Shown in pieces: positions 4,369-24,314 of a stretch of DNA of 43,104 nucleotides. The stretch covers positions 1 to 43,104 of the forward strand of contig CALGWV010000013.1 in NCBI GenBank assembly GCA_937936325.1, given 5' to 3'. Numbering within the stretch: position 1 is the first letter of the stretch; every line of letters begins with the position of its first letter. Both the position numbers and the translations under genes were made by a program. The notes beneath the pieces were generated by a model. That model was not told the origin of the DNA. It was given only the letters and a program-made list of their open reading frames with translations, and ran no database searches. Source of the stretch: an uncultured Bdellovibrionales bacterium (lineage in GTDB: Bacteria; Bdellovibrionota; Bdellovibrionia; Bdellovibrionales; UBA1609).

Positions 4369-4380
4369 GGACTGTTAACT

Positions 4381-7586: not shown

Positions 7587-7647
7587 TAGGTGGGAGACAC
7601 AATAATCTATTGGGGTGGCACATAAAGAATAGAAAGCCAGATGCGTG

Positions 7648-7678
7648 TTCTACCGGTAGAATATAGCCTTTAAGCTAT
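7648..7678. other. Adjacent palindrome and hairpin after the signalling operon
   Basis: TTCTACCGGTAGAA (7648-7661) is a perfect 14-base palindrome, followed at once by ATAGC-CTTTAA-GCTAT (7663-7678), a 5-bp hairpin. No T-run follows, so a simple terminator is unlikely. It could be an operator for the downstream protease gene. Confidence 0.35.
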
Positions 7679-7794
7679 GAGGATTGACAGTTTAGAGTTC
7701 GAAAAATGGGCAAAATAAGCATTTATCGTCAATATTTTCTAACCCAATGTGAAATTATTGTGATACTCAAGACTTTGTTAAAAAGGGGGCTGTT

Positions 7795-9460: not shown

Positions 9461-9676
9461 GTGGAGAAGTATCAAACAAAAAGTTGTTTGCGTTGTGAAG
9501 AACATGCTTGTGAAAAAGCGGGCTTTCAATACAGGTGTCGGTCCTGTGGTTTTGTAGAAGAAATTGAAGACGAGTACGAGAACTCAATTGATTCGGTTCA
9601 GAAAAAATACAACCGAACTTTAGATCTTGTAGAAATTTTTAGTTTTGCGAATGAAAAAAGATCAAACGGCTTATGA
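9461..9676 (+). CDS. Small zinc-ribbon protein
   Basis: A 71-residue protein starting at GTG behind a strong AAGGAGGT site. It has two CxxC pairs, KSCLRCEEH and YRCRSCGF, about 15 residues apart plus one extra Cys, the pattern of a zinc ribbon. The rest is acidic and helical (EIEDEYENSIDSVQKKYN). It is first in the transfer operon and overlaps the next gene by 4 bp. Small zinc ribbons at this position could bind DNA or regulate transfer; no specific family recognised. Confidence 0.65.
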   Translation: MEKYQTKSCLRCEEHACEKAGFQYRCRSCGFVEEIEDEYENSIDSVQKKYNRTLDLVEIFSFANEKRSNGL

Positions 9677-9849
9677 GCGAAGAGCAAAAAGTGAATGAGT
9701 TTAAAGATGAGGGGAATATGAAAGAGTTAGAGATGATCAATCAAAAATCAGAGCTTCAGAAGAGGAAGTCGGCTTATGAAAGAAAGTACCGTCGGCAAAT
9801 CAAAGAGAAGCTTAAAAACGTAATGAATCAATTTAAAAGGGGAATCTAA
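9673..9849 (+). CDS. Small basic coiled-coil-like protein (58 aa)
   Basis: A short gene whose ATG overlaps the previous stop (ATGA). The product begins MSEEQKVNEFKDEGNMKELE, continues with a highly basic helical stretch (KRKSAYERKYRRQIKEKLK) and ends NQFKRGI. Charge and helix content fit a DNA- or protein-binding accessory factor, for example a relaxosome component, but no family is recognised. Tight spacing to both neighbours (4 bp overlap and 4 bp gap) supports its being real. Confidence 0.6.
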   Translation: MSEEQKVNEFKDEGNMKELEMINQKSELQKRKSAYERKYRRQIKEKLKNVMNQFKRGI

Positions 9850-9853
9850 GTAA

Positions 9854-10219
9854 ATGAAAAATTTAAATAATAAAGATGAGTTTTACTATATGTCTTGGTT
9901 TTGTCCACAAACAGGGTCAAGAGAAATTGCTGGTGTTGCTTACTACAACGAAGAGTCTAGTGATTACAGGTTAATTATTAATTTTTTTCCAGAGAATAAC
10001 TACTTTCTCAAATGCTCAGAAGTTTTAGACGGTGTTTGTCACTACAAACTTCTGGCTGTTAAGCAAAGAGGTGGAGCATCAAGTCGCTTCTTTCAAGGAA
10101 ATGGAGTTCTCAATAGAGGAAAAAATGAAATCACTATAAAGGTAGCTCCTTTTTCAAAGCTGCTAATTATTAATTTAAATGGCCAGCCGGCCAGAAACCA
10201 AAAGGAGATAAAAGCTTAA
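9854..10219 (+). CDS. Hypothetical protein of the transfer operon (121 aa)
   Basis: No signal peptide or membrane segment. It is soluble-looking and rich in beta-type sequence, for example FYYMSWFCPQTGSREIAGVA and SDYRLIINFFPENNYF. The C-terminus LLIINLNGQPARNQKEIKA is followed directly by the pilin gene. The position right before VirB2 suggests a conjugation accessory role. The ATG has a GGGG run 13 bases upstream. Function unknown. Confidence 0.6.
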   Translation: MKNLNNKDEFYYMSWFCPQTGSREIAGVAYYNEESSDYRLIINFFPENNYFLKCSEVLDGVCHYKLLAVKQRGGASSRFFQGNGVLNRGKNEITIKVAPFSKLLIINLNGQPARNQKEIKA

Positions 10220-10522
10220 ATGAAGAAGTATCAAGGAATCATATTGATGAGCGTTTTGGTTGGAGTTTGTTTTGTACTACCAGAGTTTGCAGATGCGGCA
10301 GTGGTGAAATCAGGGTTTGAAAATAAAATGGCGAATCTTCAGCAAAAGTTCTCATCATTTATTTTACCAGTGATGAGTGTGCTCGGCTTAGTCATGGCAG
10401 CAATTTTAGCAGCTATGGGTAATGAGGGGGCTAAATCAAAAATTTACTTCTGTTTAGTTGGAAGTGGAGTTGGTTTCTTAGCACCCTACATTATTGGATG
10501 GATTCAAGGGATTTTAAACTGA
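10220..10522 (+). CDS. virB2: VirB2/TraA-like pilin precursor
   Basis: A 100-residue protein with a long signal peptide (about 1-26, ending FADA/A) and two hydrophobic helices (about 49-67 and 77-97) separated by a short NEGAKSK loop. This is the size and topology of conjugative pilins of the VirB2/TrbC family. It comes first among the secretion genes, before VirB3, as in the VirB operon. The next start overlaps its stop. Confidence 0.8.
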   Translation: MKKYQGIILMSVLVGVCFVLPEFADAAVVKSGFENKMANLQQKFSSFILPVMSVLGLVMAAILAAMGNEGAKSKIYFCLVGSGVGFLAPYIIGWIQGILN

Positions 10523-10845
10523 TGAGTCTTGACCGTTCAGTCGTTCATAGAAACCTAGATTCAAAAATAAAGTTTTTGGGTATGGAGTTATTTGATGTCA
10601 TCGGAGTCGGTGCCTTTGCTTCAATTATGAACCTCATATTTGGTCAAACTAACATAGCGGGGGTGATGGTCTTTGGCCTCCCCGCGCTTTTAAGTGTGAT
10701 CATTTATTTGGGAAAGAAGGGAAAGCCTGAGAGGTTTTTACAAGATTACATTAGATTTTCAGTTCTTCCTGGGGTTTTTTGCGTGGGTGAAGACCTAAGC
10801 TTTGAAAATCAAAGAAGGAGGGAAGTTGTCTTTAAATCCAAATAG
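10522..10845 (+). CDS. virB3: VirB3-like inner-membrane protein
   Basis: I use the ATG overlapping the pilin stop (10522), giving 107 residues. The pattern is typical of VirB3/TraL-type proteins: a short charged N-terminus (SLDRSVVHRNLDSKIKFLGM), two closely spaced membrane helices (about 25-60) and a charged tail. Its place between VirB2 and VirB4 agrees. It overlaps the VirB4 start by 20 bp. Confidence 0.75.
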   Translation: MSLDRSVVHRNLDSKIKFLGMELFDVIGVGAFASIMNLIFGQTNIAGVMVFGLPALLSVIIYLGKKGKPERFLQDYIRFSVLPGVFCVGEDLSFENQRRREVVFKSK

Positions 10846-12223
10846 TATCGGAGACTTTTTAAATATCTGGCATTTCTTTGGTGACCTGATGGTTTTTGGG
10901 GACGGATCGCTTGGGTGTGGTTTTAAGCTTAGTGGAAAAGATATTTCTTGTGTGACTGATGAGGAAGTGAGTCAGTTCACTCGAAAATTAGAAAATATGG
11001 TGACAAGTCTCGATGAAGGACTTTCTTTTCAGTTTTTCTATAAACTTGAATCTAATGTTTTAAGAAAAATAGAAGAACACGAAAGCCTATCTTCAGATTG
11101 TAAGATCAATGGATATGAGAAAATACTTAACTCAAGAGTTGATCAGTTTAAGAAAAACTCAAGAGATGGGCATTTTTTTAACCCACAAGTTTATTTTTTT
11201 CTAAGAGGAAGGCCTTATACTTTTAAAAGAAAAAAACTACTTCAAAAAGAAAAAGACTTTACTCAGGTGCAAGAGGAAGATTTTAAAGTTCATGCTGAAG
11301 ACTTCGAGCGTTCTATCAACCAGGTGGAGTCTTCTTTAAAAGACAGCTTCTTGTTTGACGACCGCTTAGCAAAAGAAGACTGGTTTGCACTTTTATATGA
11401 GCATTTCAATCTTGATAGGTCAGAGGCACATGAGGCACCAAAACTTAAAGGTCCAAGGGTATTTTCACCGAGTTCTTTGCTAAATCAAATGCTGTTAAGT
11501 GATATTTCGCTTAGTAAAAACTATCTAGAGGTTGGAAAATACAAATTTAGAACTGTAAGTTTAAAGACTCTTCCAGATGAAACTTATTCAGGTTTAATTA
11601 ATGGCCTATTGGGTATGAGCTTTCACTGTTGGATCAGCCAGGTTGCTAAGGTCTGCAATCAATCTAAAGAATATAATTCTTTACAACTCAAAAGGCGTGT
11701 CGCTCATTCTATGGCCTGTGGAAATAGTAATGTAAGTGATATGGAGAGTGAGTCTAAGCTTGGTCAAATTGAAGGGCTTTTAGGCGAGCTGATTGACAGT
11801 TCAGAAAAAGTTGTTGAGGTGGATCTAAATGTCATCGTTTGGGGTGAGACAGAAAGAGAACTTGAAGAAAAGTGTGACGAGGTTCTTAGGACTTTTAAAA
11901 AACTCAACCATTCAGAAGCTTTAGTTGAAACTTATGCAGCTTTTGACTCGTTTATCAAAGCAGCCCCCGGTCTTTGTCTCATTAACAGAGCAAAGAAGAT
12001 GAAGTCATCAAATCTTTCGCATTTGATCCCAGCATTTTCATATTGGAGAGGTAATAATAAACCAAGCTGCTTGCTTCCAAATAGAGACAATGTCCTGGTT
12101 TCAATAGACCCATTTGCTCCAGAGCTACCAAACTGGAATGGATTTATTGTGGGCTCATCAGGCAGTGGAAAGTCTTTCACCATAAACCAAATGATTTTGA
12201 TGTTTATAGGAGATCAACAGTGA
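10826..12223 (+). CDS. virB4: VirB4-type ATPase, N-terminal part up to Walker A
   Basis: The TTG at 10826 has GGAGGG just upstream; a TTG at 10802 is also in frame. The 465-residue product carries the VirB4/TraC N-terminal domain and ends shortly after Walker A, GSSGSGKSFT (about 443-452), stopping at MFIGDQQ. Normal VirB4 proteins are about 800 residues, with Walker A and B in one chain. The remainder is encoded by the next gene in the -1 frame, starting at a GTG that overlaps this stop. VirB4 energises pilus assembly and substrate transfer at the inner membrane. Whether the split is natural or a frameshift (real or sequencing) is open. Confidence 0.85.
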   Translation: MSLNPNSIGDFLNIWHFFGDLMVFGDGSLGCGFKLSGKDISCVTDEEVSQFTRKLENMVTSLDEGLSFQFFYKLESNVLRKIEEHESLSSDCKINGYEKILNSRVDQFKKNSRDGHFFNPQVYFFLRGRPYTFKRKKLLQKEKDFTQVQEEDFKVHAEDFERSINQVESSLKDSFLFDDRLAKEDWFALLYEHFNLDRSEAHEAPKLKGPRVFSPSSLLNQMLLSDISLSKNYLEVGKYKFRTVSLKTLPDETYSGLINGLLGMSFHCWISQVAKVCNQSKEYNSLQLKRRVAHSMACGNSNVSDMESESKLGQIEGLLGELIDSSEKVVEVDLNVIVWGETERELEEKCDEVLRTFKKLNHSEALVETYAAFDSFIKAAPGLCLINRAKKMKSSNLSHLIPAFSYWRGNNKPSCLLPNRDNVLVSIDPFAPELPNWNGFIVGSSGSGKSFTINQMILMFIGDQQ

Positions 12224-13284
12224 AAAGTGATCTTCAAAATGACGTTTCAAAGTCAAAAGTGGTGTGGATAGACAATGGCGCTTCGTCTCAGGGAATGGTT
12301 GAGTCATTAGATGGTCAATTTATTGATCTAAGTCTTGAAAGTGGCCTTGTGCTCAATGCCTTTCAACTCGATGAGGGTGAGAGTCAGGTTTCCCCTACAA
12401 AGAAAAAACTTCTTTTAGGAGTTATTGAGTCCATTTGTAAAGAGGATGATTCACATGGTTTGCCAAAAAGAGAGAAGGCTCTTTTAGAGCAAGCAATTGC
12501 TGACACCTATGAAGTTTGTCGGGATAAGTCGCCAACAATGAGTGACTTTAAAAACACTCTAGAGAATCACCGTTTAGAGGAAATGAGAAAGTATGCAGAC
12601 ATCTTGTACTCATGGACAGGAAAGACGGCCTACGGAAAACTTCTTGATGGACAAACCAATATAGAGCTTTCTAAGCCTTTGGTGTCTATCGAGGTTAAGG
12701 GGCTAGATATTTACCCAGACCTTCAAAGGGTTTTACTGCTAATTCTTACAGAGCACATTATGAATGAAGCTTCTAAGAATCCAAGCCAGCGGTATTTGTT
12801 AATTGTTGATGAGATTTGGAAGGTATTGCAAAACGAGAGTGCTGCCCAGTTTATTATTGAGTGCTACAGGACCATGAGAAAGTTTTATGGAGGAATTTGG
12901 GGTGTCACCCAGTCCATAAAAGACTTTATGTTTGACCCAGAGATTGCAGCAGCAATTATGCAAAACACTCCGAGCCGAGTCATTCTCAAGCAAAGAGGGG
13001 TTGATTGGAAAGAGTTTCAAGAAATTTTATCTCTTAATGATGCTGAAGTTGAAGCTGTAAAGTCGCTTCGTTCAGAAAAGGGTAAGTTTTCAGAGCATCT
13101 TTATATCCAAGATGAGCAAAAGGCTATTTTAAAAATAGAACCCGATGCTCTTTCATATTGGATTTGCACAACTGACCCTCAAGATAAAACTGTAATAAAC
13201 GAATTCAAAACAAAATATCCAGACCTAAAATACATAGAGGTGTTGGAAAAAATTGTTGAAAAACAAAAAGGAGAAAACAACTAA
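12220..13284 (+). CDS. virB4: VirB4-type ATPase, C-terminal part with Walker B
   Basis: A 354-residue continuation of VirB4: VVWIDNGASSQGMVESLDG and GQFIDLSL are what follows Walker A in TraC/VirB4 proteins. Walker B is YLLIVDEIWKVL, followed by YRTMRKFYGGIWGVTQS. The two pieces add to about 820 residues, the normal size. GTG is preceded at 7 bases by AGGAG (12208-12212), a proper ribosome site, so the fragment could be translated by reinitiation. The upstream frame is also open for some distance, so a -1 frameshift mutation is equally compatible. No slippery heptamer was seen at the junction. Confidence 0.85.
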   Translation: MKSDLQNDVSKSKVVWIDNGASSQGMVESLDGQFIDLSLESGLVLNAFQLDEGESQVSPTKKKLLLGVIESICKEDDSHGLPKREKALLEQAIADTYEVCRDKSPTMSDFKNTLENHRLEEMRKYADILYSWTGKTAYGKLLDGQTNIELSKPLVSIEVKGLDIYPDLQRVLLLILTEHIMNEASKNPSQRYLLIVDEIWKVLQNESAAQFIIECYRTMRKFYGGIWGVTQSIKDFMFDPEIAAAIMQNTPSRVILKQRGVDWKEFQEILSLNDAEVEAVKSLRSEKGKFSEHLYIQDEQKAILKIEPDALSYWICTTDPQDKTVINEFKTKYPDLKYIEVLEKIVEKQKGENN

Positions 13285-13285
13285 A

Positions 13286-13981
13286 GTGAAATTTTTAGTA
13301 ATCCCATTGTGTGCAATTATTATTGGCGTAGGAACTCCTAAAAAAAGCCATGCTTTATTTGGTGCAGATGCTGCGGCCATGATTCCATTTCTAGTAAAAA
13401 TATTGGCCCAAGCCGTTAAGCAGTATCATCAAATGAAAACTCTCTATGAGAACGCTAAGAATCATAAAGAGATGTTTCGGTCCATTAACGATGGCCTTAA
13501 TGCAGCGATTGGACTTTTAGAGAGTTTACCTATTGAAGATGAAAATATTTTAGGTGAATTAAAGACATTTCGCCGAGCAATGAACGAGATAGAACAGATC
13601 TATGGTGCTATTCCAAAGGGTAAAGAAGAGCTTTTGATGAGGCTACACGACAATACTGTTGCTGAGTCGATTAAAATTTCAAACTCTTTAAAGCAGTACG
13701 CTAAGTCTCAAGAGAAAAATTCAAATAGAATTGCAAGGCAAGCAGCTCATGTCAGTCCAAAGGGAGCTGCAAGAGTTAATGTTCAAACAAATGCGGCCAT
13801 TCTACATACACTAAATCAGCTTTTGAGAGTGAACGGTCAGATGCTTAAACTTCAAAGTGAAAACCTGGCTATGACTAACAAGACTGCTAAAGAGTCAAAT
13901 TACCATTTCAGTAAGGTGACTAAAGATCTTGGAAGTAGTTTTAAGAGTTTTGAAGCCAGTTTTAGGACGCCAAAGTTTTAA
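13286..13981 (+). CDS. virB5: VirB5/TrbJ-like periplasmic protein
   Basis: I use the GTG at 13286, just after the VirB4 stop, giving 231 residues; an in-frame TTG lies upstream at 13253. A signal peptide (KFLVIPLCAIIIGVGTP... ending SHA/LFG) is followed by a long alpha-helical protein with many Gln, Asn and Lys residues. The pattern is typical of the VirB5/TrbJ minor pilus component. Its position between VirB4 and VirB6 matches the VirB order. Confidence 0.65.
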   Translation: MKFLVIPLCAIIIGVGTPKKSHALFGADAAAMIPFLVKILAQAVKQYHQMKTLYENAKNHKEMFRSINDGLNAAIGLLESLPIEDENILGELKTFRRAMNEIEQIYGAIPKGKEELLMRLHDNTVAESIKISNSLKQYAKSQEKNSNRIARQAAHVSPKGAARVNVQTNAAILHTLNQLLRVNGQMLKLQSENLAMTNKTAKESNYHFSKVTKDLGSSFKSFEASFRTPKF

Positions 13982-14961
13982 TGTATGATTGGCTACCGGA
14001 AGTTTGTCGAGAAATCAGAGGAAATTTACTTGAGATTTATTGGTTGTCCATAGTTCCCCTGACTCTTTTGTTGATCATTTTAGAATTTTTTAAATTACCA
14101 GAGCGAGAGCCAAATGCTTTGGGAGTTATAAAGCGGGCTGCGATTTCAATAATTCTCTTAATGAGTTTTGATGAAGTTATACATACGATTGCAGCTATTG
14201 GCGATGGTATTGTGCTCTCTATTAGCCCTAAGCCTCATATCAATCAGGTTTTAGACGAGGTGTGGAAGTTTGTTCAAAGTGTTGAGCTGAGTTGGCTGAA
14301 ATATAAAGAGACTATCATTTGGGTGTTTAGTCTCATGTCATTTATATTTGCATATCTTGGTGCCTTTATAGCAGATGCGTTGGTTCATTTCTGTTGGGCG
14401 ATTCTGTATATCCTCTCGCCACTGATGATCCTTGCTTACATTCCTCAATCGACGGCTAAGATTGCCATAGGGCTTTATAGAAGTCTTTGTACAGTCATGA
14501 CCTGGAAAGTGATGTGGGCAGTACTCGGGGTGATTTTATTAAAGTTTACAACTAATGTTCCAATAACCGAGGCTGATAACTACAACGCCGTTTTGCTAAT
14601 TGTTATTAATGTTTTTATTGGCCTCAGCATGCTTTTTGTCCCGATTGCAACGAAAGCATTCTTATCAGGAGATTTTGCAGCTTATTCAGGTGCCCTAGCT
14701 ATAGCCCCGGCCATTGCTTCAAAGAAGTTAATTGTAAGTCAGCTTAAAAAAGCAGGCGGTTTTGCTGCAAAACGTGGAAAGAATTTTGCCTTTAGTGGAG
14801 TTAGAGGAACAGGCCGTGCTGTTAAAGGTTTTGGTGAAAGGTTTAAAGGTAGAAAGGACGCTTCAAATCAAAGACCAAATTATTCAGACTTAAATACAAA
14901 GACAAAGAGTGTGCGCACTCCAAAAAAATCAAATACTAACAAAGGAGATCGACGTAAATGA
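13981..14961 (+). CDS. virB6: VirB6-like polytopic membrane protein
   Basis: A 326-residue protein with about five to six hydrophobic segments (about 20-40, 50-70, 100-125, 130-150, 165-185, 195-220) and a long basic, Ser/Thr/Lys-rich tail (about 245-326). VirB6/TrbL proteins form the inner-membrane part of the secretion channel. The start overlaps the VirB5 stop by one base and its stop overlaps the next ATG. The basic tail could contact DNA or other components. Confidence 0.75.
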   Translation: MYDWLPEVCREIRGNLLEIYWLSIVPLTLLLIILEFFKLPEREPNALGVIKRAAISIILLMSFDEVIHTIAAIGDGIVLSISPKPHINQVLDEVWKFVQSVELSWLKYKETIIWVFSLMSFIFAYLGAFIADALVHFCWAILYILSPLMILAYIPQSTAKIAIGLYRSLCTVMTWKVMWAVLGVILLKFTTNVPITEADNYNAVLLIVINVFIGLSMLFVPIATKAFLSGDFAAYSGALAIAPAIASKKLIVSQLKKAGGFAAKRGKNFAFSGVRGTGRAVKGFGERFKGRKDASNQRPNYSDLNTKTKSVRTPKKSNTNKGDRRK

Positions 14962-15551
14962 TGACATTTAAATCAAAGCGTTTAGAACCTGTAAATCAAT
15001 GGATAAAGGTTAATCTTTTAATGAGAAATCTTCGTCTTGTGATTCACGGATTGCTAGTTTCAAATTTTATTCTTATGGGAACCTGTATCTACCTACTTAA
15101 CAAAGATACCTTGGTTGTTGCCTTAACAGAGTCAGACAGTCTTTATTTTATAGGCAAGAGACAAAAGAATGAAGTGAATGAAGAAGATGTTGAAAAAGCT
15201 GCAAAAAACTTTGTTCTTAACCGCTATCAGTGGAAAGACTACAGCATTGAAGCTTTAGTTAGAAATATTTCACCGCATGTGACTTATGGATTACTAAAGA
15301 AGATGACAAAGAAGTTTGAAAAATCAAAAGACTTTGTAAAAAAGAATGCGATTTCTCAAGACATTGTTGTCCAAAGTGTTGAGTTAAAAGAAAGTCATGT
15401 TGAGGTCAAATTTGATAGGGTGGTATCCGTTGGGAAAAAAGTTAAGGCCGTTCAACCCTTAGAAGTGCATCTGGAAATTATTCAAGACACTGCGAACAAA
15501 TGGAATCTAAAAGGGCTCTATGTAAATTCAATCACGGAGTTTGAACAGTGA
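14958..15551 (+). CDS. virB8: VirB8/TraE-like assembly factor
   Basis: A 197-residue protein with one N-terminal membrane helix (about 25-48) and a periplasmic domain of about 150 residues. The segment EDVEKAAKNFVLNRYQW and a beta-rich end with KWNLKGLYVN are typical of the VirB8/TraE fold. An AGGAG site precedes the overlapping start. VirB8 nucleates the inner-membrane complex and contacts VirB9 and VirB10, the next two genes. Confidence 0.7.
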   Translation: MMTFKSKRLEPVNQWIKVNLLMRNLRLVIHGLLVSNFILMGTCIYLLNKDTLVVALTESDSLYFIGKRQKNEVNEEDVEKAAKNFVLNRYQWKDYSIEALVRNISPHVTYGLLKKMTKKFEKSKDFVKKNAISQDIVVQSVELKESHVEVKFDRVVSVGKKVKAVQPLEVHLEIIQDTANKWNLKGLYVNSITEFEQ

Positions 15552-16264
15552 TAAGACCTCTGGTTCTACTTATTGTGTGTTTTTTTACAAAGCCTGCTTT
15601 TTCAAAGGTGCGGACCATTGAAATGGACTCTGGTCAAATGAAGACCATTACTCTTGCTTTGGGGAGATCTACAGTTTTGCAATTTGTAGATTCTCCCAAG
15701 AAAATAGTAAGCGGTAATAGCAACTACTTTAATATCGAGTTTACTGGAAATGATGTGACTATTCAGCCTCTTTCACAAGTTTCAAGTAATCTGTTTATAT
15801 ACAGTGGCCATAGACGCTTTGGGTTCATTTTAAAGGTTTGCCACTGTCAGAGCTATGATGACTTGGTCAAAATTTACTGGAAATACCCCAAGAAAAAAGC
15901 CGCAAAGCGATTTGTTAAGAAAAAAAATAAATTCAAATCTCAGTCCTTTCATGTTGGAAAAACCAAAGTTTACGCATCAAACATGTTTTATCATAAGTTT
16001 AATGATGTTTATGTTTTAGATGGCAGCTTTGTTCTACCAAAGGGCATGGCTAAGCCCAAAGCAAAAGACTTTTGGACTACGAAGGGTGGCAAAACGTTAA
16101 CGACATTGGATGTTGTTTTCTCAGATGAGGTAAAATTTAAGAACTATAGAAACATCAGGTTTCGGATGTTTTTAAAACTTCTTAAACCAGTGGATTTTAC
16201 CCTGAGAGCGAAATTAGGAAAAAAAGAGGGCCATGTGATCATCTATAAGAGGTGGTATCAGTGA
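15548..16264 (+). CDS. virB9: VirB9/TraK-like outer-complex protein
   Basis: A 238-residue protein with a signal peptide (about 1-18). Beta-strand-rich sequence such as GQMKTITLALGRSTVLQFV and GNDVTIQPLSQVSSNLFIY resembles the TraK/VirB9 secretin-like fold, and GFILKVCHCQSY supplies two Cys. The position before VirB10 agrees. The start overlaps the VirB8 stop. Assignment rests on the fold pattern and order. Confidence 0.65.
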   Translation: MIRPLVLLIVCFFTKPAFSKVRTIEMDSGQMKTITLALGRSTVLQFVDSPKKIVSGNSNYFNIEFTGNDVTIQPLSQVSSNLFIYSGHRRFGFILKVCHCQSYDDLVKIYWKYPKKKAAKRFVKKKNKFKSQSFHVGKTKVYASNMFYHKFNDVYVLDGSFVLPKGMAKPKAKDFWTTKGGKTLTTLDVVFSDEVKFKNYRNIRFRMFLKLLKPVDFTLRAKLGKKEGHVIIYKRWYQ

Positions 16265-17280
16265 AGCCTATTTTTAAGAGATGCTATTTGCAAATAAAAA
16301 ATATAGTTCTCGCCCCAATAAAAATTTGGGGCGAGGTGAAGTCATTTTGTGACGAGAAGTTCTTCAAGAAGTACTTTGGCAAAAAAACAATTAATCTAGC
16401 AGCTTCTATGAAATGGGGGTTTTCGCTTTTTCTAATATTGATGACTGGACTAAGTCTATTCATGTCTCCCGAAGAAGACAGTAGCTCTTATAGTACGTCA
16501 TATATAAAGGCCAAGAGTAAAGAAAGCGAAGGTGTTGATGGTGTGAAAATTGTGACACCTATTAGGCCTCTAAAGGGTACATCTAGTAGAAAACAGAACA
16601 GGATTTCAGGCGATGAATCAGCTCCGAGGCAGTTAAAGCGAGGGGCTCACTCTGCAATCAAGTATGCTGGAAAGCAGGTCTTAGTTCGGTCAAGTTCCCA
16701 AGGTGACAGAGCGTTGCCCGTGGGGACAAACCTGATTGGAAAGCTTCTATCTAGTGTTGATACACGTCAAAGCGAAAAGTTTGTGCGTGTGCTACTGCCT
16801 TATGGTGGGAAGTTCAAAAATCGAGTTGGTATTCCTAAAAATACTGTTCTGCTTGGCCAGGTCTCATACCCAAGCCGAGGAAAAAGAGTTTATCTCAATT
16901 TTCATACAGGAGTCTTGCCAAACGGTGAGGAGATCAAGGTAGCAGGGGCTGCGATGGACGCTAAGGATTTTTCTCCAGGTCTTATTGGTAATTATAACAG
17001 TGCTTTTTCCGGCAGAGCAGGAGCCACTCTAGGGTTTTCTTTTGTAGCTGGTGCAAGTGAAGTTCTTCAAGAAAAAGAAGCTCTTGGGCAGGGGCATTTT
17101 GTATCGAAAAAGGCCACTTTAAACAACGCACTTTTAAATGGAGTTTCAGAGTTTGCAAAAACAGAAGGGGCGTTTCAGTTAGAAGAGGCTCGTAGCGAAA
17201 CGGGCTTCGTCACTCTAAATCAAGGAAAAGAGTTAATCATCACTTTAACCAAAACATTTAAGAATGGAGGGGAGAACTAA
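16261..17280 (+). CDS. virB10: VirB10/TraB-like channel protein
   Basis: I prefer the GTG at 16261, overlapping the VirB9 stop and preceded by AAGAGGTGG; the frame also has a GTG at 16252. The 339-residue protein has an N-terminal cytoplasmic segment, one helix (about 52-68), a charged flexible region and a C-terminal beta-barrel-like domain. VRSSSQGDRALPVGTNLIG, VLLGQVSYPSRGKRVYLNF and LPNGEEIKVAGAAMDAKD are VirB10/TraB signatures. It spans the envelope and forms the outer-membrane pore with VirB9 and VirB7. Confidence 0.85.
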   Translation: MKPIFKRCYLQIKNIVLAPIKIWGEVKSFCDEKFFKKYFGKKTINLAASMKWGFSLFLILMTGLSLFMSPEEDSSSYSTSYIKAKSKESEGVDGVKIVTPIRPLKGTSSRKQNRISGDESAPRQLKRGAHSAIKYAGKQVLVRSSSQGDRALPVGTNLIGKLLSSVDTRQSEKFVRVLLPYGGKFKNRVGIPKNTVLLGQVSYPSRGKRVYLNFHTGVLPNGEEIKVAGAAMDAKDFSPGLIGNYNSAFSGRAGATLGFSFVAGASEVLQEKEALGQGHFVSKKATLNNALLNGVSEFAKTEGAFQLEEARSETGFVTLNQGKELIITLTKTFKNGGEN

Positions 17281-18761
17281 TGGGTAAGGAGAAAACTAAA
17301 CCAGGGATTGAACGATTGATTGAAAACGTATGTAGCTTTTTAAAAGCAATCTACTGCTATTTAATTCATGCTGGTCGAAAATTTTCGTCTCTTTCAGCTC
17401 ATTCAAAAATAAACATCTTAGGTCTTTTTGTATTGTTATATATACTTTCAGTTACAAATTTTCACTTCTGGATGATGCATAAGGCGTGGCCTATGCTCTT
17501 TTCTCAGCAATTTGTCAGAAACATGGGAATGATCTCTCTTCCAGTTAAATATCTTCTTTTAAGTGGCTTTACTCTTCTGCTGGTTGTTAAGTTCTTGGGG
17601 TGGTCAAATATAAGTAAGATGAAGGCTGTGACGAAAGGTCTAAAGCTTGCGGGGCTTAAAAATGCTGGTGGTATTGGCCCAAGGGCGACAGATATTGTGA
17701 ACCTGTCACCGTACCGTCAGAAGGTATCAATAGACTCTGAAGGTGTTCCTCTTGAGGAGTTTGAGCGCAAGAAAAATTTCATTAGATCTTGTGTGAACTC
17801 CCAAGTAGAGGCGATTATAGAAGGTGATGAGCCGAAGTACTTAGATCTTTATTTAACCAATAAGCTGCTGCCAAAGAGAGTTTCGTACGGTGAAGTTTGC
17901 TCCCATGCTTTAAAGCCGGGTCAGTTTGTAATTGGTAAAAATTATGGTCAGGTCATAACCCAAAATCTATTTGATCTGCCACACATGTTAGTCGCTGGTA
18001 GCACAGGTATGGGAAAATCTTATTTTTTAAGGCAAATGCTTTTAAATCTTCTTGAAAACACTCCTGATCTTCAGGTCTATGCTTTGGATTTTAAAGAGGG
18101 AATTTCAATGAAGCCATTTCGCTCTCATCCGAGAGTGAGGGTTATAAAAGATGTCACTCACGCCATAACTATCTTAGAAAAAATTGAATCTGAAATGAAA
18201 AAGAGATTTAAAATCCTTGAAGAAACAGATGCTGATGTGATTGATCCGAAAGTTCATAAGAGAGATCCTATTTTGGTTTTAATTGATGAGTGTTCAATGC
18301 TCTATTCGTTAGTCGCCAGAGGTAAGAGCGAAAAAGAAAGTGCTCTAAAAGCTACGCAAATTACAGACAATATTGCAAAGCTTTCAAGGGCGGCGAGGAT
18401 ACATCTCGTTCTGGGAACGCAGAAGATCACGAAAGAAACTGTAAGCACTCATATTCAAGAGAATATTGAAGGGCGTGTTTGCTTTAAAGTGACTTCAATC
18501 CAGGGGTCAGCCCTTGTAATAGGAAACAAGGCTGCAAAAGATCTACCTAAGATACCTGGCCGAGCTATTAGCAAGGTCAGTGTTGATCAGGAAGAGGTTC
18601 AAACTCCATTTATCACGACTGAGGAGATTAAGCAGAGAGTTGCTAGATTAAAAGAAGACCTTGATAAGGGAAAAAGAAAACCCAACCAAGAAATGGTTTC
18701 TGAGGTGAAGCTAAGGAAAGAAAAAGTTGAAGACAAATTTGCAGAGGTCGTAAAAACATGA
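17280..18761 (+). CDS. FtsK/VirD4-like coupling ATPase
   Basis: A 493-residue protein with two N-terminal membrane helices (about 45-65 and 88-105). The FtsK/SpoIIIE-type motor domain has Walker A AGSTGMGKSYFLRQ (240-247) and Walker B PILVLIDECSML. The downstream SRAARIHLVLGTQKITKE segment is FtsK-like. It starts at the last base of the VirB10 stop and overlaps the next gene by 4 bp. In conjugative elements with no VirD4 this type of ATPase couples the relaxase-DNA complex to the secretion channel. Confidence 0.88.
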   Translation: MGKEKTKPGIERLIENVCSFLKAIYCYLIHAGRKFSSLSAHSKINILGLFVLLYILSVTNFHFWMMHKAWPMLFSQQFVRNMGMISLPVKYLLLSGFTLLLVVKFLGWSNISKMKAVTKGLKLAGLKNAGGIGPRATDIVNLSPYRQKVSIDSEGVPLEEFERKKNFIRSCVNSQVEAIIEGDEPKYLDLYLTNKLLPKRVSYGEVCSHALKPGQFVIGKNYGQVITQNLFDLPHMLVAGSTGMGKSYFLRQMLLNLLENTPDLQVYALDFKEGISMKPFRSHPRVRVIKDVTHAITILEKIESEMKKRFKILEETDADVIDPKVHKRDPILVLIDECSMLYSLVARGKSEKESALKATQITDNIAKLSRAARIHLVLGTQKITKETVSTHIQENIEGRVCFKVTSIQGSALVIGNKAAKDLPKIPGRAISKVSVDQEEVQTPFITTEEIKQRVARLKEDLDKGKRKPNQEMVSEVKLRKEKVEDKFAEVVKT

Positions 18762-19531
18762 GCAAAAGCCATCGTTACTCTTTACGCTTAAACAATAGAG
18801 ATCGACTCTTGTTTGAATATTTATTTGTGACTAAAGGAGCCACTCGTCGACAAGTGCATAAGGATATTTTTACTGGCAGGTCTGCTCCGACGGTTCATGA
18901 TAGGCTTAGCAAGCTTGAGAAGTATGGGTATATTGAACGTTTCCCTGTTCATTTTGATGGTTCAATGCTTGGCTATCGTCTGACATACAAAACAGTAAAT
19001 GATTGTGAATTTTTCGATATTCAACCTAAAAGATCAGAGTTTAAGTCAACAAATCCAAGCCATGATTTTTCATTGATTGAGATAAGAAGAGGATTCCTTA
19101 GGGCTGAGGGATTAAAGCATTATCTAATGGAAAATGAACTACAGTCAGGCTTAATTAATGGGAAAGTCTATGAATATAACGATTTCAAGAGTCTAAATTC
19201 AGATGCTTTCATTAGATTGCGAATCGGATCCAATGAGTTTTCAGGTGCGATTGAATTCGAACAGTCAGTAAAAATGAAATCTAGGTATATTGAGCTGTTC
19301 AATTCTTATTATGATTCTGATCATGTCACATTTGTTCTTTACGTTGTTGCAAATAATCGTTTGTATTCAGCAATATTGAATTTTGAAAAGGAAGTTAGAG
19401 GTGAGCAAAGACCAAAAATATTTGCAATAACTTACAACGATTTCAAAAATGAAGACAAGTGTCTCGAGTTTAAGAATCACGATGGTCACGTTTTAAATAT
19501 AACATTAAAACAGGATGGAGGAGTTAAATGA
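18758..19531 (+). CDS. Replication-relaxation family-like protein, candidate DNA-processing factor
   Basis: A 257-residue protein. The N-terminal winged helix (about 10-75: RDRLLFEYLFVTKGATRRQV, then VHDRLSKLEKYGYIERF) is followed by a domain resembling plasmid replication-relaxation proteins (Replic_Relax). Landmarks are His102/Asp103 in PSHDFSLIEIRRG, Asp149, and Glu166-x-Glu168 followed by Lys in GAIEFEQSVKMKSRY, which can be read as a PD-(D/E)xK-type nuclease core. No classical relaxase (two-His MOB family) was recognised here, so this gene, coupled to the T4CP by a 4-bp overlap, is the best candidate for recognising or nicking the transfer origin. Function inferred. Confidence 0.6.
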   Translation: MSKSHRYSLRLNNRDRLLFEYLFVTKGATRRQVHKDIFTGRSAPTVHDRLSKLEKYGYIERFPVHFDGSMLGYRLTYKTVNDCEFFDIQPKRSEFKSTNPSHDFSLIEIRRGFLRAEGLKHYLMENELQSGLINGKVYEYNDFKSLNSDAFIRLRIGSNEFSGAIEFEQSVKMKSRYIELFNSYYDSDHVTFVLYVVANNRLYSAILNFEKEVRGEQRPKIFAITYNDFKNEDKCLEFKNHDGHVLNITLKQDGGVK

Positions 19532-19705
19532 TTATCATAATTTAAAATATTTGATCCTAATTGGAGTCTAATTTGCATCGAACTCATTTAGGAAGTTTTT
19601 CATATGCGTTTTCAGATAAGTAACTAAATTAAATCGGCTTTCTTGAATTAGGAAGTAAACTGTATTTGAGTCAGTCAATGTATATGGAGGTGTAGAATTA
19701 CATTT

Positions 19706-20176
19706 ATTAAAAATATCATATTGTGTGTGTTTGTATTTGGAAGTTTAGGTTGTTCAACAGTTGGAAAGTCGACGCTGCTGGGGGTTGGGTCAGGTGCTGG
19801 TTTAGGAGCTATGTCTGCTGCGGCATTAGCATCAAAGAATCATCAGCAAGTGACTCTTCGTGGAGCTGGAGTTGGTGCTCTTGTTGGTGGTTTAACAGGT
19901 TACCTTTTTCACAAACTAGTTGAGAAAAAAGAAACTAAAGTGAGAAGAGACACTTTGTTTAATTTGGAGTCTCATGGAATTTCAACCGGCTTTGATGGAG
20001 TGGACTTAAAAAAGTTTAATACTTTTGTCACTTCACCAGAGTTACGCGAGGGGTATATTGAAACTCATACCGTAGATGATGGCAGGAAGCTTATCCAGGG
20101 TCATAAGACGTGGACTATCATTGGAAATCCTCAATTTAATTTGGCCAGTCCAAAAAGAAAAAGAGGCTCTAGGTGA
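19706..20176 (+). CDS. Glycine-zipper lipoprotein, possible VirB7 counterpart
   Basis: A TTG at 19721 opens a 151-residue frame, but the natural lipoprotein signal seems to start earlier at an ATT (19706), giving MKNIILCVFVFGSLGCST with a lipobox-like SLGC. GGAGGT lies 14 bases upstream of that ATT. Downstream is a glycine-rich hydrophobic stretch (GVGSGAGLGAMSAAALASKN then GAGVGALVGGLTGYLF), a glycine zipper that may insert in membrane. VirB7 proteins are small lipoproteins of the outer complex, and this operon lacks another. ATT starts are rare, so the true start is uncertain. The frame overlaps the next gene by 4 bp. Confidence 0.6.
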   Translation: MKNIILCVFVFGSLGCSTVGKSTLLGVGSGAGLGAMSAAALASKNHQQVTLRGAGVGALVGGLTGYLFHKLVEKKETKVRRDTLFNLESHGISTGFDGVDLKKFNTFVTSPELREGYIETHTVDDGRKLIQGHKTWTIIGNPQFNLASPKRKRGSR

Positions 20177-20538
20177 TTCAGATTGTAAAGTCTGGGAAGA
20201 TAAGTCTTGAGCCTGAAGCTGTAGAAGCTTTGGTTCAGATGTGTAAGATTTTAAATGAGGAGAATGGTGGTGTGAAAGCATCACCTTCTCAAATTGTCAG
20301 TCAGTCCTTGATTGAATACGCTGATCGTTATTTTGAGCGAGATAAAGATCGTATTATGGCTCTTATTTTTGACAAGAGGAGTTATAATAAGGGTGTCGAT
20401 AAAAGAGCTAAGACAGACAAGGAGTATGACGAGCTTATAGAGAAGGGTAGGTCTCTGGGTAGTAAGAGGGAAAAAATACTTTCTTTAAGAGCTGCTAGAA
20501 GAGCTTCAGTGAGCGTTCAATCAGAGGACCAAAATTGA
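20173..20538 (+). CDS. Small hypothetical protein of the ICE (121 aa)
   Basis: It starts at GTG overlapping the previous stop. The sequence is charged and helical (KISLEPEAVEALVQMCKIL, SPSQIVSQSLIEYADRYFE), a bit like ribbon-helix-helix/MobC-type accessory proteins, but I do not recognise it firmly. The basic Arg/Ser-rich tail could touch DNA. A terminator-like hairpin follows immediately. Confidence 0.55.
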   Translation: MIQIVKSGKISLEPEAVEALVQMCKILNEENGGVKASPSQIVSQSLIEYADRYFERDKDRIMALIFDKRSYNKGVDKRAKTDKEYDELIEKGRSLGSKREKILSLRAARRASVSVQSEDQN

Positions 20539-20543
20539 TTTTT

Positions 20544-20570
20544 AAAATACAAAATTGCGTTTGTATTTTT
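20544..20570 (+). terminator. Rho-independent-type terminator after the transfer genes
   Basis: AAAATACAAA-ATTGCG-TTTGTATTTT forms a 10-bp stem and is followed by T residues. It is AT-rich with few GC pairs, so moderate strength. It sits just after the last transfer-operon gene. Confidence 0.55.
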
Positions 20571-20650
20571 AGGCTTAAGAGTCTGTTTTTACCTCTAAAA
20601 ACATTGAATTTAAGTAAGCAAAAAAGTATATTTACATATGAGGCACTCGT

Positions 20651-20905
20651 ATGAATGCCTCAGCCCTAAAGGGGGAATGGCTCTTTGAAAATAGAATAGA
20701 GTTTTTGATGGCATTAAATCATCACGTATTTAATGAAAAGGAAGCGGCTTTTTATTGTCGATGTGGAGTGGATAGCATTCGCTACCATGCACTTCGTACT
20801 AGAAAGCTCACGTTCTGCGACTTTACTAAAGAAGGCTTAGTTTTTCTCAAAACAGACCTTGATTCTTTCCTTATGCGTTCGCGCAAGCAAAGTTATCAAG
20901 GCTAG
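20651..20905 (+). CDS. xis: Excisionase-like small DNA-binding protein
   Basis: An 84-residue protein with a MerR/excisionase-type helix-turn-helix: FNEKEAAFYCRCGVDSIRYH then LTFCDFTKEGLVFLKTDLDS, the pattern of small Xis/HTH_17 proteins. It sits 11 bp before the integrase gene. Excisionases tip integrase-mediated recombination toward excision. Confidence 0.75.
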   Translation: MNASALKGEWLFENRIEFLMALNHHVFNEKEAAFYCRCGVDSIRYHALRTRKLTFCDFTKEGLVFLKTDLDSFLMRSRKQSYQG

Positions 20906-20916
20906 GGAGAAAAATT

Positions 20917-22257
20917 ATGAATGAATTAGTGCAAATAGAAGTTTCTTTTGAATACGCTCCGAAGGTTTATTGTTATAAAAGAGAGAATGGTTGGTATTGG
21001 AAGTTTAAATTTCCAAACAACACTTGGTTCTACGGACCTGCTCCTGGAAATACAAAAAAAGTTGCAAGGCAAAATGCCAATCTAAAAGAGCGGCAACTTG
21101 CTAAAGGACTTTTTACTCAGCGGGAAGCAGAAAAGTATAGAACAACTTCTTCTCAAGTACTGACTTTTGATGATGCAATAGAGCAGTTTATTGATCATCT
21201 TAAGTCAGAAGATGCTTCACCAAATTATTATAAGGGACTTGAAGCAACTCTCAAAGCTGCTGCAAGATACTTTATTGAAGTGCAGCGGATTGATTTTGCT
21301 CACAAGCTTACTGAAGATCATGCCTACAGGTATCGACAGAGTTTGTTGGCGCGGGTGAAGAGTGAGGAAATCAAACGAGTCACAGCTTTTAAGTTGTTAA
21401 ACAATTTTAAAAGACTTTATAAGTGGCTTAGGCGCAGAAAAAAGATTGCGTCAAACCCTTGGGTTGAAGTTGAGGCTATAGTTGTTCCAAAAGAAGAGCG
21501 ATCAAGAAGAGTAACGCCGACACCTGATATTATTCCAAAGCTTATGTCTGCCGATTATAAACATCGTTTTAATTTTCCCATAAAAGAATTTGTTTATGGA
21601 CTTTTTAGAACGGGTGCTAGAAAGCAAGAGCTTTTATATATGGAAGTGGATGATGTGGATTGGGAAACAGGTCGCTGGGAGATCAGAAAAAAGAAATGTC
21701 CGGTTAAACACGGAGATGTCTGGTTTCCTAAGTATAAAAAGTCGAGAGTTACTTTTTTACCTCAAGACGTGCTGGATTTATTCAAACCATTGGTTGAAAG
21801 AGCCAAGCTTCACAAAGTGGTCGGTTACACCCCTAATTTTAGTGGTGTGATGAAGCCCCAAGAAGCTAGGTTTATTTTCACAATGATTGATGTAAATTTA
21901 AGCAGCCCTGGTCGAAGAAAGGTCTACCGAAGGGTGGATTCGGTTCGAGGCAGTTGGGGTGGTCTTTTTATTGCTGCTGGATTGGTAGAATCAAAGCTCA
22001 CATTCAGTCGCTCAACGGCCAAATATAAAAATGGTCATAAGGTAAGGACTGATGTGGCAGTGCCCTTCACAAGGCATGATATGCGGCGAGGTTTTAACGT
22101 AGCAGCAAAGAAAGCAGGAATGTCTCTAGATGATCGAGCGATGCTCTTAGGTCATGGGCGAGATGTGAATGAGAGTAGTTACTGTGGCGAACCCGAGCTA
22201 GATGGAAGAGAAGTTCTCGAGATTATAAACAATAAAATGTGGAAAGGAGCGGTTTAA
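20917..22257 (+). CDS. int: Tyrosine recombinase (integrase) of the ICE
   Basis: A 446-residue tyrosine recombinase. The N-terminal half holds the arm-type and core-binding region (about 80-180). The catalytic domain has Arg235 (FRTGARKQELL), the H-x-x-R box His387/Arg390 (HDMRRGFN), the LGHGRD segment with His413 and nucleophile Tyr422 (ESSYCGEP). It lies 25 bp from the 3' end of tRNA-Leu, the classic position of an ICE integrase next to its attachment site. The preceding excisionase-like gene completes the recombination module. Confidence 0.93.
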   Translation: MNELVQIEVSFEYAPKVYCYKRENGWYWKFKFPNNTWFYGPAPGNTKKVARQNANLKERQLAKGLFTQREAEKYRTTSSQVLTFDDAIEQFIDHLKSEDASPNYYKGLEATLKAAARYFIEVQRIDFAHKLTEDHAYRYRQSLLARVKSEEIKRVTAFKLLNNFKRLYKWLRRRKKIASNPWVEVEAIVVPKEERSRRVTPTPDIIPKLMSADYKHRFNFPIKEFVYGLFRTGARKQELLYMEVDDVDWETGRWEIRKKKCPVKHGDVWFPKYKKSRVTFLPQDVLDLFKPLVERAKLHKVVGYTPNFSGVMKPQEARFIFTMIDVNLSSPGRRKVYRRVDSVRGSWGGLFIAAGLVESKLTFSRSTAKYKNGHKVRTDVAVPFTRHDMRRGFNVAAKKAGMSLDDRAMLLGHGRDVNESSYCGEPELDGREVLEIINNKMWKGAV

Positions 22258-22282
22258 GAATGACATGTAGCCTTGTAAAAAA

Positions 22283-22369
22283 TGGTACCGACGGCGAGAA
22301 TCGAACTCGCACATTATTGCTAATACGGGATTTTGAATCCCGCGCGTCTACCAATTCCGCCACGTCGGC
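22283..22369 (-). tRNA. tRNA-Leu (anticodon CAA), intact
   Basis: Read on the minus strand it begins GCCGACGTGGCGGAATTGGT. The anticodon arm is CGGGA-TTCAAAA-TCCCG, so the anticodon is CAA (reads UUG). A long class II variable arm (ATTA-GCAA-TAAT) and T-arm GCGAG-TTCGATT-CTCGC follow, and CCA is encoded. Positions 1 and 72 form a G-U pair. T6 follows the CCA. Its 3' end faces the integrase gene and its 5' half is repeated twice to the right, so it marks the ICE boundary. Confidence 0.93.
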
Positions 22370-22498
22370 AATTTACTATTTTGTTACAAGGCGATTTTTT
22401 CAAACAGTGAGATTTGGCAGTCTGAGTCTCACAAGTAGTTATAATGCTTAAAAAAATCAAAACTTTATTCTTTCCTTTCGTCCTTTAGACGCGTGGTT

Positions 22499-22537
22499 TT
22501 TTGAATCCTTCGTGTCTACCAATTCCACCACGTCGGC
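22499..22537 (-). pseudogene. Degenerate tRNA-Leu 5' half (copy 2)
   Basis: On the minus strand GCCGACGTGGTGGAATTGGT then AGACACGAAGGATTCAAAA matches tRNA-Leu from base 1 to the anticodon loop; the sequence then diverges, so no 3' half and no T-arm are present. The acceptor half is identical to that of the intact tRNA. Confidence 0.8.
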
Positions 22538-22666
22538 AATTTACTATTTTGTTACAAGGCGATTTTTTCAAACAGTGAGATTTGGCAGTCTGAGTCTCAC
22601 AAGTAGTTGTTATGCTTAAAAAAATCAAAACTTTATTCTTTCCTTTCTTCCTTTAGACACGCGGTA

Positions 22667-22705
22667 TTTTGAATCCAGTGTGTCTACCAATTCCACCACC
22701 GAGGC
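22667..22705 (-). pseudogene. tRNA-Leu 5' half with different acceptor (copy 3)
   Basis: On the minus strand GCCTCGGTGGTGGAATTGGT, then AGACACACTGGATTCAAAA, ends at the anticodon loop. The acceptor GCCTCGG differs from the intact gene (GCCGACG), so it descends from another tRNA-Leu, most simply the original chromosomal one. It is contiguous with the chromosomal flank that leads to the subtilisin gene. Confidence 0.75.
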
Positions 22706-22748: not shown

Positions 22749-24314
22749 TCAAGATACGGCTTTTCTTTTAGGGCGAAGAATTATTGCAGCTAGAAAAGGA
22801 AAAAGCAAAAAGACCCATCCCATTGAGCTATTTGTTTTGCCGGTGAATAACTTTAAGCTCCCAGGTTTTCCATGACCTCCCACCTGTTGGTTCATGTCAT
22901 CATAGACAGCTGTGACACGTCCACAACCTCCACCTTCGGAATAAGACCCATCATAAGAAGACTGTGAGCTGAAGCCACCCTGTCCTTGGTAGGTGGGAGT
23001 GTAGTCAGGAGAAAATGGGCTAGTGGCAGTATTTTGTTGAGCTGCGAGTACAGCACTTAACATGTTAATTCGTTTGGCGTGTTTGAGCTTAGACCCTAAG
23101 CTCGCCACATCATCGCCTGATGAGATTAAAAGTTGACCTACTTGATAAGCAGAAAGTTGAGGGGCTTCACGCCAGATCAGTGCGGCTAAACCAGAAACAA
23201 TTGGGGTCGCCATACTTGTCCCTGAAGCAAAACCATAACCACTTCCAGGTAAAAGGCTGAGTATATATTCTCCAGGGGCTGCTAAATCAACTTCAGGTCC
23301 ATAGTTAGAAAATTGAGAGAGTTCGTCAGAGTCACTCGTTGAAGCTACTGAAATCAAACTGGGGATGTCAAAATTTGCAGGATAAATAGGATTTGTGGCT
23401 GTGTTTTGTCCTTGGTTTCCAGCAGCAGCTATTGTGAGAGCCCCATAGGTGTGAGCCTTAACAAAAACTTCGTGAAGAGACCGACTGTAAGAAGGGCCCC
23501 CCCAAGAATTATTTAAAACTCGAGCCCCTTTATTTAATGCATAATTGACAGCATCGATTGCATCGGAAACAACACCTGAGCCTGAATCACTTAAGAATTT
23601 CAAAACCATGATTTTAGCACGAATATGGGAGTTGTTGGGTTCAAATAAATCTTCAGTTGCGCCAATGGCCACTCCAGCCACATGTGTCCCGTGACCAGAA
23701 TTATCACTTAAGTTTGCATTATTATCTATAAAGTTCCAGCCCCATTTGTCATCGATATAACCGTTACCATCATCATCAACTCCGGTGACACCATTAACTT
23801 CTAAGGCATTTTCCCAAACTCGGTTTTGGTTTATAAGTTCTCGGTGATTTATATCAGCTCCAGAATCTAAAATAGCAATTATGGGTGTGATCGAAGAGGT
23901 CTCGGAAACCTCTGTCCAAGACTCTTCAATTTGAATTGGCCCTTGAGTCATGTTTGTTCCACCGGTCATTTTGTAAACTTTATAGTTGGGTTCGGCAAAC
24001 TCAACATTAGGATCTTCATTGAGAGATCTTAAGAGGTCTTCGTGGTCTGTTTCATTTGAAACCTCAAATTTGATCTGAGCTAACCCAAGGTCCGGCCATT
24101 TTTTAAACTTTCTTATAGAGGGAGTAGATTCTTTTTGGGTGAGACTTGTCTTAAAGTGTGCGGTTGATGTTTGTGAGCTACTCGACTTATACTTCACTAT
24201 AAAGTCACCACGAGTGTATTCGGCACCAAAAGCAGTATTGAGCCCCATTGAAAGGCAAACAAGTGCAACGCAAGAACTAAAAACGAAGAGAACGTGAGAG
24301 TGTTTTTTAGGCAT
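22749..24314 (-). CDS. Subtilisin-like serine protease (S8) with C-terminal membrane tail
   Basis: A 521-residue secreted protease. Signal peptide at about 1-30 (ending TAFGA/EY), then an I9-type propeptide (GDFIVKYKSS to NVEFAEPNY), then the catalytic domain: Asp in IAILDSGADI, His in DNSGHGTHVAG, the oxyanion region LNNSWGG and AAAGNQG, and Ser in FASGTSMATPIV. After the protease comes a Ser/Gly-rich linker with SEGGGCGRV and a final hydrophobic helix SMGWVFLLFPFLAAIIL followed by RPKRK. That tripartite tail resembles a protein-sorting signal of the GlyGly-CTERM/rhombosortase kind. It is the first chromosomal gene beside the tRNA junction and is probably involved in envelope or extracellular proteolysis. 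Confidence 0.9.
   Translation of the reverse strand: MPKKHSHVLFVFSSCVALVCLSMGLNTAFGAEYTRGDFIVKYKSSSSQTSTAHFKTSLTQKESTPSIRKFKKWPDLGLAQIKFEVSNETDHEDLLRSLNEDPNVEFAEPNYKVYKMTGGTNMTQGPIQIEESWTEVSETSSITPIIAILDSGADINHRELINQNRVWENALEVNGVTGVDDDGNGYIDDKWGWNFIDNNANLSDNSGHGTHVAGVAIGATEDLFEPNNSHIRAKIMVLKFLSDSGSGVVSDAIDAVNYALNKGARVLNNSWGGPSYSRSLHEVFVKAHTYGALTIAAAGNQGQNTATNPIYPANFDIPSLISVASTSDSDELSQFSNYGPEVDLAAPGEYILSLLPGSGYGFASGTSMATPIVSGLAALIWREAPQLSAYQVGQLLISSGDDVASLGSKLKHAKRINMLSAVLAAQQNTATSPFSPDYTPTYQGQGGFSSQSSYDGSYSEGGGCGRVTAVYDDMNQQVGGHGKPGSLKLFTGKTNSSMGWVFLLFPFLAAIILRPKRKAVS

Follow-up and report, generated by a model that had tools for sequence, protein, structure and literature searches.

The window, the whole 43,104-nucleotide stretch of DNA analysed here, is contig C13 of draft genome G000, a 2.06-Mb assembly of 138 contigs. 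Its left half is occupied by a mobile element that carries a tyrosine integrase gene and genes of type IV secretion system (T4SS) type, and its right half is host chromosome. The analysis rests on sequence throughout, and the genomes used are mostly drafts. The features to which the text refers are as follows.

1..254, plus strand: 3′ part of an IS5-like insertion (family by sequence reading) with end repeat GTGCAACAACGCC, splitting a caspase-like gene
264..22282, no strand: element body within the window, continuing on contig C17 beyond the insertion sequence (IS) copy; T4SS-type genes at ~10802-17277
17280-18761: FtsK-type ATPase, part of the element body
20917..22257, plus strand: tyrosine integrase, 446 aa (Pfam PF00589, E 1.2e-7)
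22283..22369, minus strand: C, complete tRNA-Leu(CAA) (ARAGORN), read as carried by the element
22370..22498, minus strand: spacer 2, 129 bp, read as the P′ (right) attachment arm of the present element, beginning at the core and with one GTAACAA site
22499..22537, minus strand: B, 5′ half of a tRNA-Leu(CAA) with acceptor GCCGACG, read as cut by the present element; joined to a 3′ half on C17, a tRNA-Leu(CAA) by ARAGORN
22538..22666, minus strand: spacer 1, 129 bp, 123/129 identical to spacer 2, read as the right attachment arm of an earlier element
22667..22705, minus strand: A, 5′ half of a resident tRNA-Leu(CAA) with acceptor GCCTCGG, ending in the loop TTCAAAA, read as the scar of an earlier integration; the same acceptor type is intact in G021 and G031
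22749..24314, minus strand: S8-type protease gene (name by sequence reading), host flank beyond half A

Stacked tRNA-Leu halves beside an integrase gene

Read on the minus strand toward the integrase gene, the order is host DNA, half A, spacer 1, half B, spacer 2 and complete tRNA C. ARAGORN finds a single tRNA in the window, the tRNA-Leu(CAA) at 22283-22369 of the minus strand, which bears out the description in the earlier note of an intact gene adjoining the integrase (20917..22257). The two orphan 5′ halves that it reported are likewise present, at 22667-22705 and 22499-22537. Half A reads GCCTCGG...CTGGATTCAAAA (22705-22667) and half B reads GCCGACG...AAGGATTCAAAA (22537-22499), and both pass through the anticodon loop TTCAAAA before departing from tRNA sequence. 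A repeat search returns two 168-nt copies (22331-22498 and 22499-22666) that are 94% identical, so that the repeats noted earlier are spaced by exactly 168 but are inexact as copies. Within them, spacers 22538-22666 and 22370-22498 differ at 6/129 positions. The suggestion that half A represents the original chromosomal type agrees with the presence of intact GCCTCGG...CCGAGGT tRNA-Leu(CAA) genes in G021 and G031. Tyrosine integrase genes of this family occur once in the draft genome, and of the four tRNA-Leu detected there, C alone has the anticodon CAA.

The integrase matches PF00589 at 32.1 bits (cut-off 27.1). Pfam families were matched by six of the ten proteins scanned (integrase, FtsK and T4SS families), with the type IV secretion families TrbI, TraC_F_IV and TraG P-loop above cut-off and a CagX match under its own (28.5 versus 34.2 bits); no relaxase was found among these ten proteins. 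The VirB4/TraC-like ATPase (10802-13284) is split into two ORFs that overlap by four bases, and its relative in G025 is one 861-aa ORF (L086:5028-7613); a frameshift, decay or a sequencing error could account for the split. Searches of the genome_contigs set and of plasmid and phage records returned no relatives of the integrase.

The unoccupied form of this site was sought in two ways. Among 30 loci round the best S8 protease matches, a tRNA lies nearby only in the window's own locus. Comparison of 16 window flank genes with 22 tRNA-Leu(CAA) loci of relatives, all of other genera (≤3 kb each), gave no match.

The far end of the element and its attachment site

A search of the genome with the tRNA-Leu region leads to contig C17 (5,469 bp), which has a tRNA-Leu(CAA) 3′ half in its first 166 bases. 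This half (C17:113-166, minus strand) begins at the anticodon loop and carries acceptor CGTCGGT and stem TCCTT. Joined to B, it is called as tRNA-Leu(CAA) by ARAGORN, with 5/5 pairs in the anticodon stem (AAGGA/TCCTT) and six Watson-Crick pairs plus one G-U in the acceptor (GCCGACG/CGTCGGT). Joined to A, it gives no tRNA, with 3/7 acceptor positions mismatched and two stem pairs failing, and joined to C it leaves one mismatch in the anticodon stem. Thus, the C17 half completes B and not A, as expected if the present element cut B. For the far left end, the earlier note had predicted a 3′ half that begins at the anticodon loop, and such a half is there, but with the acceptor of B (CGTCGGT) rather than the predicted CCGAGGC of A. 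Its proposal of a crossover within the anticodon loop is upheld, since both 5′ halves and the far-end 3′ half are cut at that point. A separate ARAGORN tRNA-Leu call on C17 itself was set aside, since element DNA makes up its 5′ side.

An inverted repeat (GGCGTTGTTGCAC/GTGCAACAACGCC) bounds the unique part of each of the two contigs, and a 9-bp target duplication, TTACAATTC, flanks the IS5-like copy on either side. When the flanks are joined without the IS, a single open caspase-like frame spans C17 and the window. As read from these junctions, the two contigs are neighbours, interrupted only by the IS5-like copy, and the element therefore extends from C17 through the window over near 27 kb without the IS. 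The caspase-like gene (peptidase C14-like by eye) comprises window positions 223-627 and L005:4719-5426 on C17. A small TIR-like ORF (by eye; window 645-1016) lies beside it, and the two are possibly a defence pair.

Contigs C91 (L006:1-141) and C17 (L005:1-141) open with 141 identical bases, comprising an IS-like end, a flank and the tRNA-Leu 3′ end, after which C91 diverges within the tRNA variable loop into other DNA. This may reflect an assembly fork or a second copy, and part of the population may differ. This shared start counts against the interpretation favoured below, in which C91 has no place. The first 23 bases of C17, TACACAATTTAAATTACAGGCTC (L005:1-23), recur near the ends of other contigs of this genome (L075-L080) with different DNA after them, and resemble an insertion-sequence end. 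RelE/HigA-like toxin-antitoxin pairs (by eye) lie near the left ends of two elements, in opposite orientations (C17, L005:896-1517; G025, L087:482-1139), and a third is on C91 (L006:1669-2275).

The attachment site of the element (attP) was rebuilt for three elements from the left end, the core and the spacer of each. The 7-base anticodon loop makes up the core, as in G045 (7 bp); in the window, five more common bases extend it to the 12-bp AAGGATTCAAAA, common to B and C17. The arms on either side of the core in the rebuilt attP are free of tRNA sequence, with spacer, not tRNA, following the core, and neither end junction contains a tRNA rebuilt from both parts. The core-proximal arms form an imperfect inverted repeat by eye, with TAGACGCG on each side in G208 and GCGC..AAT/ATTGCGC in G045. 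The heptamer GTAACAA/TTGTTAC occurs at 6, 4 and 5 sites in 400 bp of left end of the three elements, counts reached by 0/2000 base shuffles. The spacers hold 1, 1 and 2 sites, with 0.026, 0.032 and 0 of the shuffles reaching these numbers. Candidate arm-type sites are thus present on both sides of the core, with the window spacer weak (one site). From this arrangement, the spacer is predicted to be the P′ arm of a lambda-type attachment site, at which the integrase would bind. If each spacer served as the right arm of one element, spacers 1 and 2 would be alike, as they are.

Related loci across the phylum

The integrase was searched against 368 genomes of the phylum (E ≤1e-15), yielding 16 matches in 13 genomes. 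Eleven loci with tRNA neighbours, the window included, were read, and in eight of these 11 a complete tRNA is preceded by a 5′ half of its own isoacceptor:

Leu CAA, half and complete tRNA: window, G208:C2, G036
Leu GAG, half and complete tRNA: G045, G176, G265 (5′ half one base short)
Arg, half and complete tRNA, integrases ~30% identical: G043 (Arg CCT), G208:C13 (Arg TCG)

This layout is missing at G208:C11 (integrase 58% identical) and G201, and the G140 contig ends after 105 bases with no layout visible. At G208:C11 (L113:2300-2350), the related integrase lies beside a tRNA-Phe with the core-like sequence GGATTTTGAATACC and no 5′ half, an arrangement that is either different or decayed. 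The other five matches are G062, which ends at a contig edge, G025, treated apart below, and G022 (L085), G129 (L091) and G208:C43 (L109), where no tRNA is present in the stretch examined.

Patterns for a half plus a complete tRNA, applied independently of the integrase, were found in seven of the 368 genomes (4 CAA, 3 GAG; backward control 0), although such patterns derive from the known cases and say little about missed ones. All seven genomes are among the 13 integrase carriers, and the 355 genomes without the integrase have none. The occurrence of a half and a complete tRNA at this spacing is not due to chance. Upstream of the half in G036 (L092:1065-1169) are two more tRNA-Leu 5′ pieces, at spacings of 64 and 76 bp; they bear the resident acceptor GCCTCTG, and their loops differ from the CAA loop.

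Two loci from different genera, G176 and G265, are identical at 150/150 bases directly upstream of the complete tRNA(GAG) and at 400/400 bases from its start downstream. Their spacers are alike over the whole distance to the core and their 5′ halves are different, and therefore the tRNA moves whole. The G045 element lies on a single contig, with the 5′ half at 390987, the complete tRNA(GAG) at 391203-391291, the integrase, and the 3′ half at ~419810-419864. The half and the displaced 3′ half, ~28.8 kb apart, together form a tRNA-Leu(GAG) with acceptor pairing of 7/7. The 5′ half lies 417 bp upstream of a queA-like gene (name by sequence reading), and an intact tRNA-Leu(GAG) is found within 1.5 kb upstream of the queA-like gene at 7/29 other loci. 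In G208, the left end of the element is joined to the 3′ half of its own supplied tRNA and the downstream DNA (132/132 identical). This junction, which could derive from a tandem array or from a circle formed via the supplied tRNA, supports re-targeting of that tRNA.

In G025, the half, spacer and complete tRNA are on C1 (L152:1480-1869) and the displaced 3′ half is on C55 (L087:1-260), a contig that ends before a tRNA beside the integrase can be identified. Pairing of the displaced half is full with the outer half and poorer with the complete tRNA. Because the complete tRNAs of G045 and G208 can match their displaced halves as well, this comparison separates the two options in the window and G025 only. 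The same flank follows both the supplied tRNA (C1) and the displaced 3′ half (C55) in G025, which the simple model presented below does not predict; the picture resembles loss of the element from some of the cells with retention of the tRNA that it had supplied. A tRNA or rRNA piece at the right end of G025 was considered and dropped; Rfam finds tRNA C and nothing else in the three scanned loci.

Proposed replacement of a resident tRNA gene and its alternatives

We judge it likely, with a probability of roughly 0.83, that an ICE-like element breaks the resident tRNA-Leu gene in its anticodon loop and supplies a complete replacement, and that A was cut first and B afterwards. The tyrosine integrase of the T4SS-bearing element would recombine within the 7-base anticodon loop of the resident gene, splitting it so that the 5′ half stays on the integrase side and the 3′ half is displaced to the far end. 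The attachment site of the element has only the core in common with the tRNA, and the resident gene would therefore be broken and not rebuilt. The element would compensate with a complete tRNA-Leu of the same anticodon, placed between the spacer (its right arm) and the integrase gene. On this view, A was cut by an earlier element that brought B, and B in turn by the present element, which brought C. Each replacement tRNA would offer a new target to a further related element, which would explain the stacked halves; repeated integration, raised in the earlier note, is their best reading. B is preceded by a spacer arm and not by host DNA, and it therefore probably arrived with the element that had cut A.

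Parts of this proposal differ in standing. Both the cut at the loop and the pairing of B with the far-end half can be read directly from the assembled contigs, as can the movement of tRNA and spacer with the element in relatives. That the complete tRNA is cargo of the element rather than a rebuilt gene is evident in those relatives and is the probable status of C in the window. We infer the order of A then B, the expression of C and the need for it, and the later loss of the first element. A pattern search of the draft genome for the 3′ half of A (≤2 mismatches) gave four matches, on C25, C73, C86 and C119, and this half was not found: the C25 match overlaps a complete tRNA, and the C73 match is not a tRNA on inspection. 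The case for the first integration therefore consists of A and spacer 1, and, given also the single integrase of this type, the first element would be lost or outside the bin. With no other tRNA-Leu(CAA) found, the host may need C, although tRNA-Leu(UAA) might read UUG instead. Promoter-like sites in the spacers number two against 1.2 expected, a scan no better than shuffles; C may be transcribed by read-through from the promoter of the broken gene.

Tandem right ends, in which both elements are still present and the first is complete beyond C17, would depart from the favoured reading only in the survival of the first element. Nested integration would leave exactly the layout A, spacer, B, spacer, C, and the tandem or circle junction of G208 is in keeping with it. 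We nevertheless regard it as unlikely, given that the draft genome has a single such integrase and that the 3′ half of A was not found in it. In addition, the 112 bp after the 3′ half of B contain no integrase end by eye, and the IS-like end there is common to other contigs.

Quite improbable, in our estimation, is a single integration followed by local duplication of the 168-bp unit (spacer plus 5′ half) through slippage or unequal crossing over. Two head-to-tail units of this length that are 94% alike would be in keeping with such an event. However, the acceptor and anticodon stem of A are not those of B, and each half has its own core-to-spacer junction. Host DNA precedes A, whereas B is preceded by a spacer that also precedes C. 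Moreover, copying is not expected to yield a half whose acceptor differs and agrees with that of intact genes in relatives.

Classical tRNA integration, in which the element brings only a tRNA 3′ part, C is rebuilt on integration, and A and B are unrelated debris, shares with these loci the layout of a complete tRNA next to the integrase with a displaced far-end 3′ half (Islander, in the parts of PMC4383910 drawn on here), as well as the ability of the complete tRNA in G208 and G045 to pair with the displaced half, but is very unlikely given the better fit of the displaced half to the outer half in the window and G025, the identical spacer and complete tRNA behind different outer halves in G176 and G265, and the tRNA-free arms on either side of the core.

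Beyond this locus, the data lean modestly toward a phylum-wide group of conjugative-type elements with a host tRNA as permanent cargo, each destroying the tRNA that it finds, supplying its own and building the next landing site. If so, the tRNA-Leu of the host would pass from element to element over time, with stacks of 5′ halves remaining, and any loss of an element that was not a precise excision would deprive the host of its sole copy. The findings would extend tRNA-dependent integration from phages of Actinobacteria to T4SS-bearing elements of another phylum, covering two tRNA-Leu isoacceptors and, next to more distant integrases, two tRNA-Arg cases. The findings further suggest that island-finding programs which look for a complete tRNA plus a displaced 3′ fragment would class such elements as ordinary and miss the broken 5′ half. 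For such tRNA replacement in conjugative elements, searches of an open-access library gave no report.

The closest precedent is tRNA-dependent lysogeny, in which the short core of an actinobacteriophage leaves the tRNA unrebuilt and the phage carries a tRNA of the same isotype (Guerrero-Bustamante and Hatfull 2024, PMC10865867). As described in the portions of that paper used here, integration is lethal without the phage tRNA, and its authors raised the question of how far this form of lysogeny reaches. Common to those phages and the present elements are a tyrosine integrase, an attB in a tRNA gene, a short core (8-17 bp in the phages) and no rebuilding, together with an element-borne tRNA of the same isotype and arm-type sites, here candidates, flanking the core. 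Phage Gaia targets tRNA-Leu-CAA with an 8-bp core. The phages are temperate and their tRNA need is shown by experiment, whereas the elements described here bear a T4SS, belong to another phylum and are known from sequence. Unlike in the phages, the tRNA is fixed between an attachment arm and the integrase gene, and the supplied tRNA is probably re-used as a target. As a fresh target, it would let the chromosome record successive elements, a consequence absent from those portions of PMC10865867. Prophage Lj965 of Lactobacillus johnsonii (cited in PMC10865867) is alike in that the tRNA is not rebuilt and the prophage encodes the cognate tRNA, and differs in being a phage.

For islands in tRNA genes, the sections of PMC4383910 and of the review PMC8371274 considered here describe an intact tRNA that is reconstituted after integration. 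Classical anticodon-loop islands have in common with the present elements a tyrosine integrase, a crossover at the 7-bp anticodon loop and a displaced far-end 3′ half. The displaced far-end fragment is present here (C17:113-166), whereas a tRNA-gene fragment that would restore the gene is absent from the rebuilt attP; in those islands the intact tRNA is rebuilt from both parts, and here it is not. The tRNA-Thr locus of Caldiarchaeum, as presented in the consulted part of PMC3293823, resembles the window in that a 5′ tRNA fragment precedes a full tRNA at a recombinase-bearing insertion. It differs in being archaeal, in involving intron gain and in a separation of 1.8 kb, and its authors read it as recombination of a tRNA-containing attP with attB.
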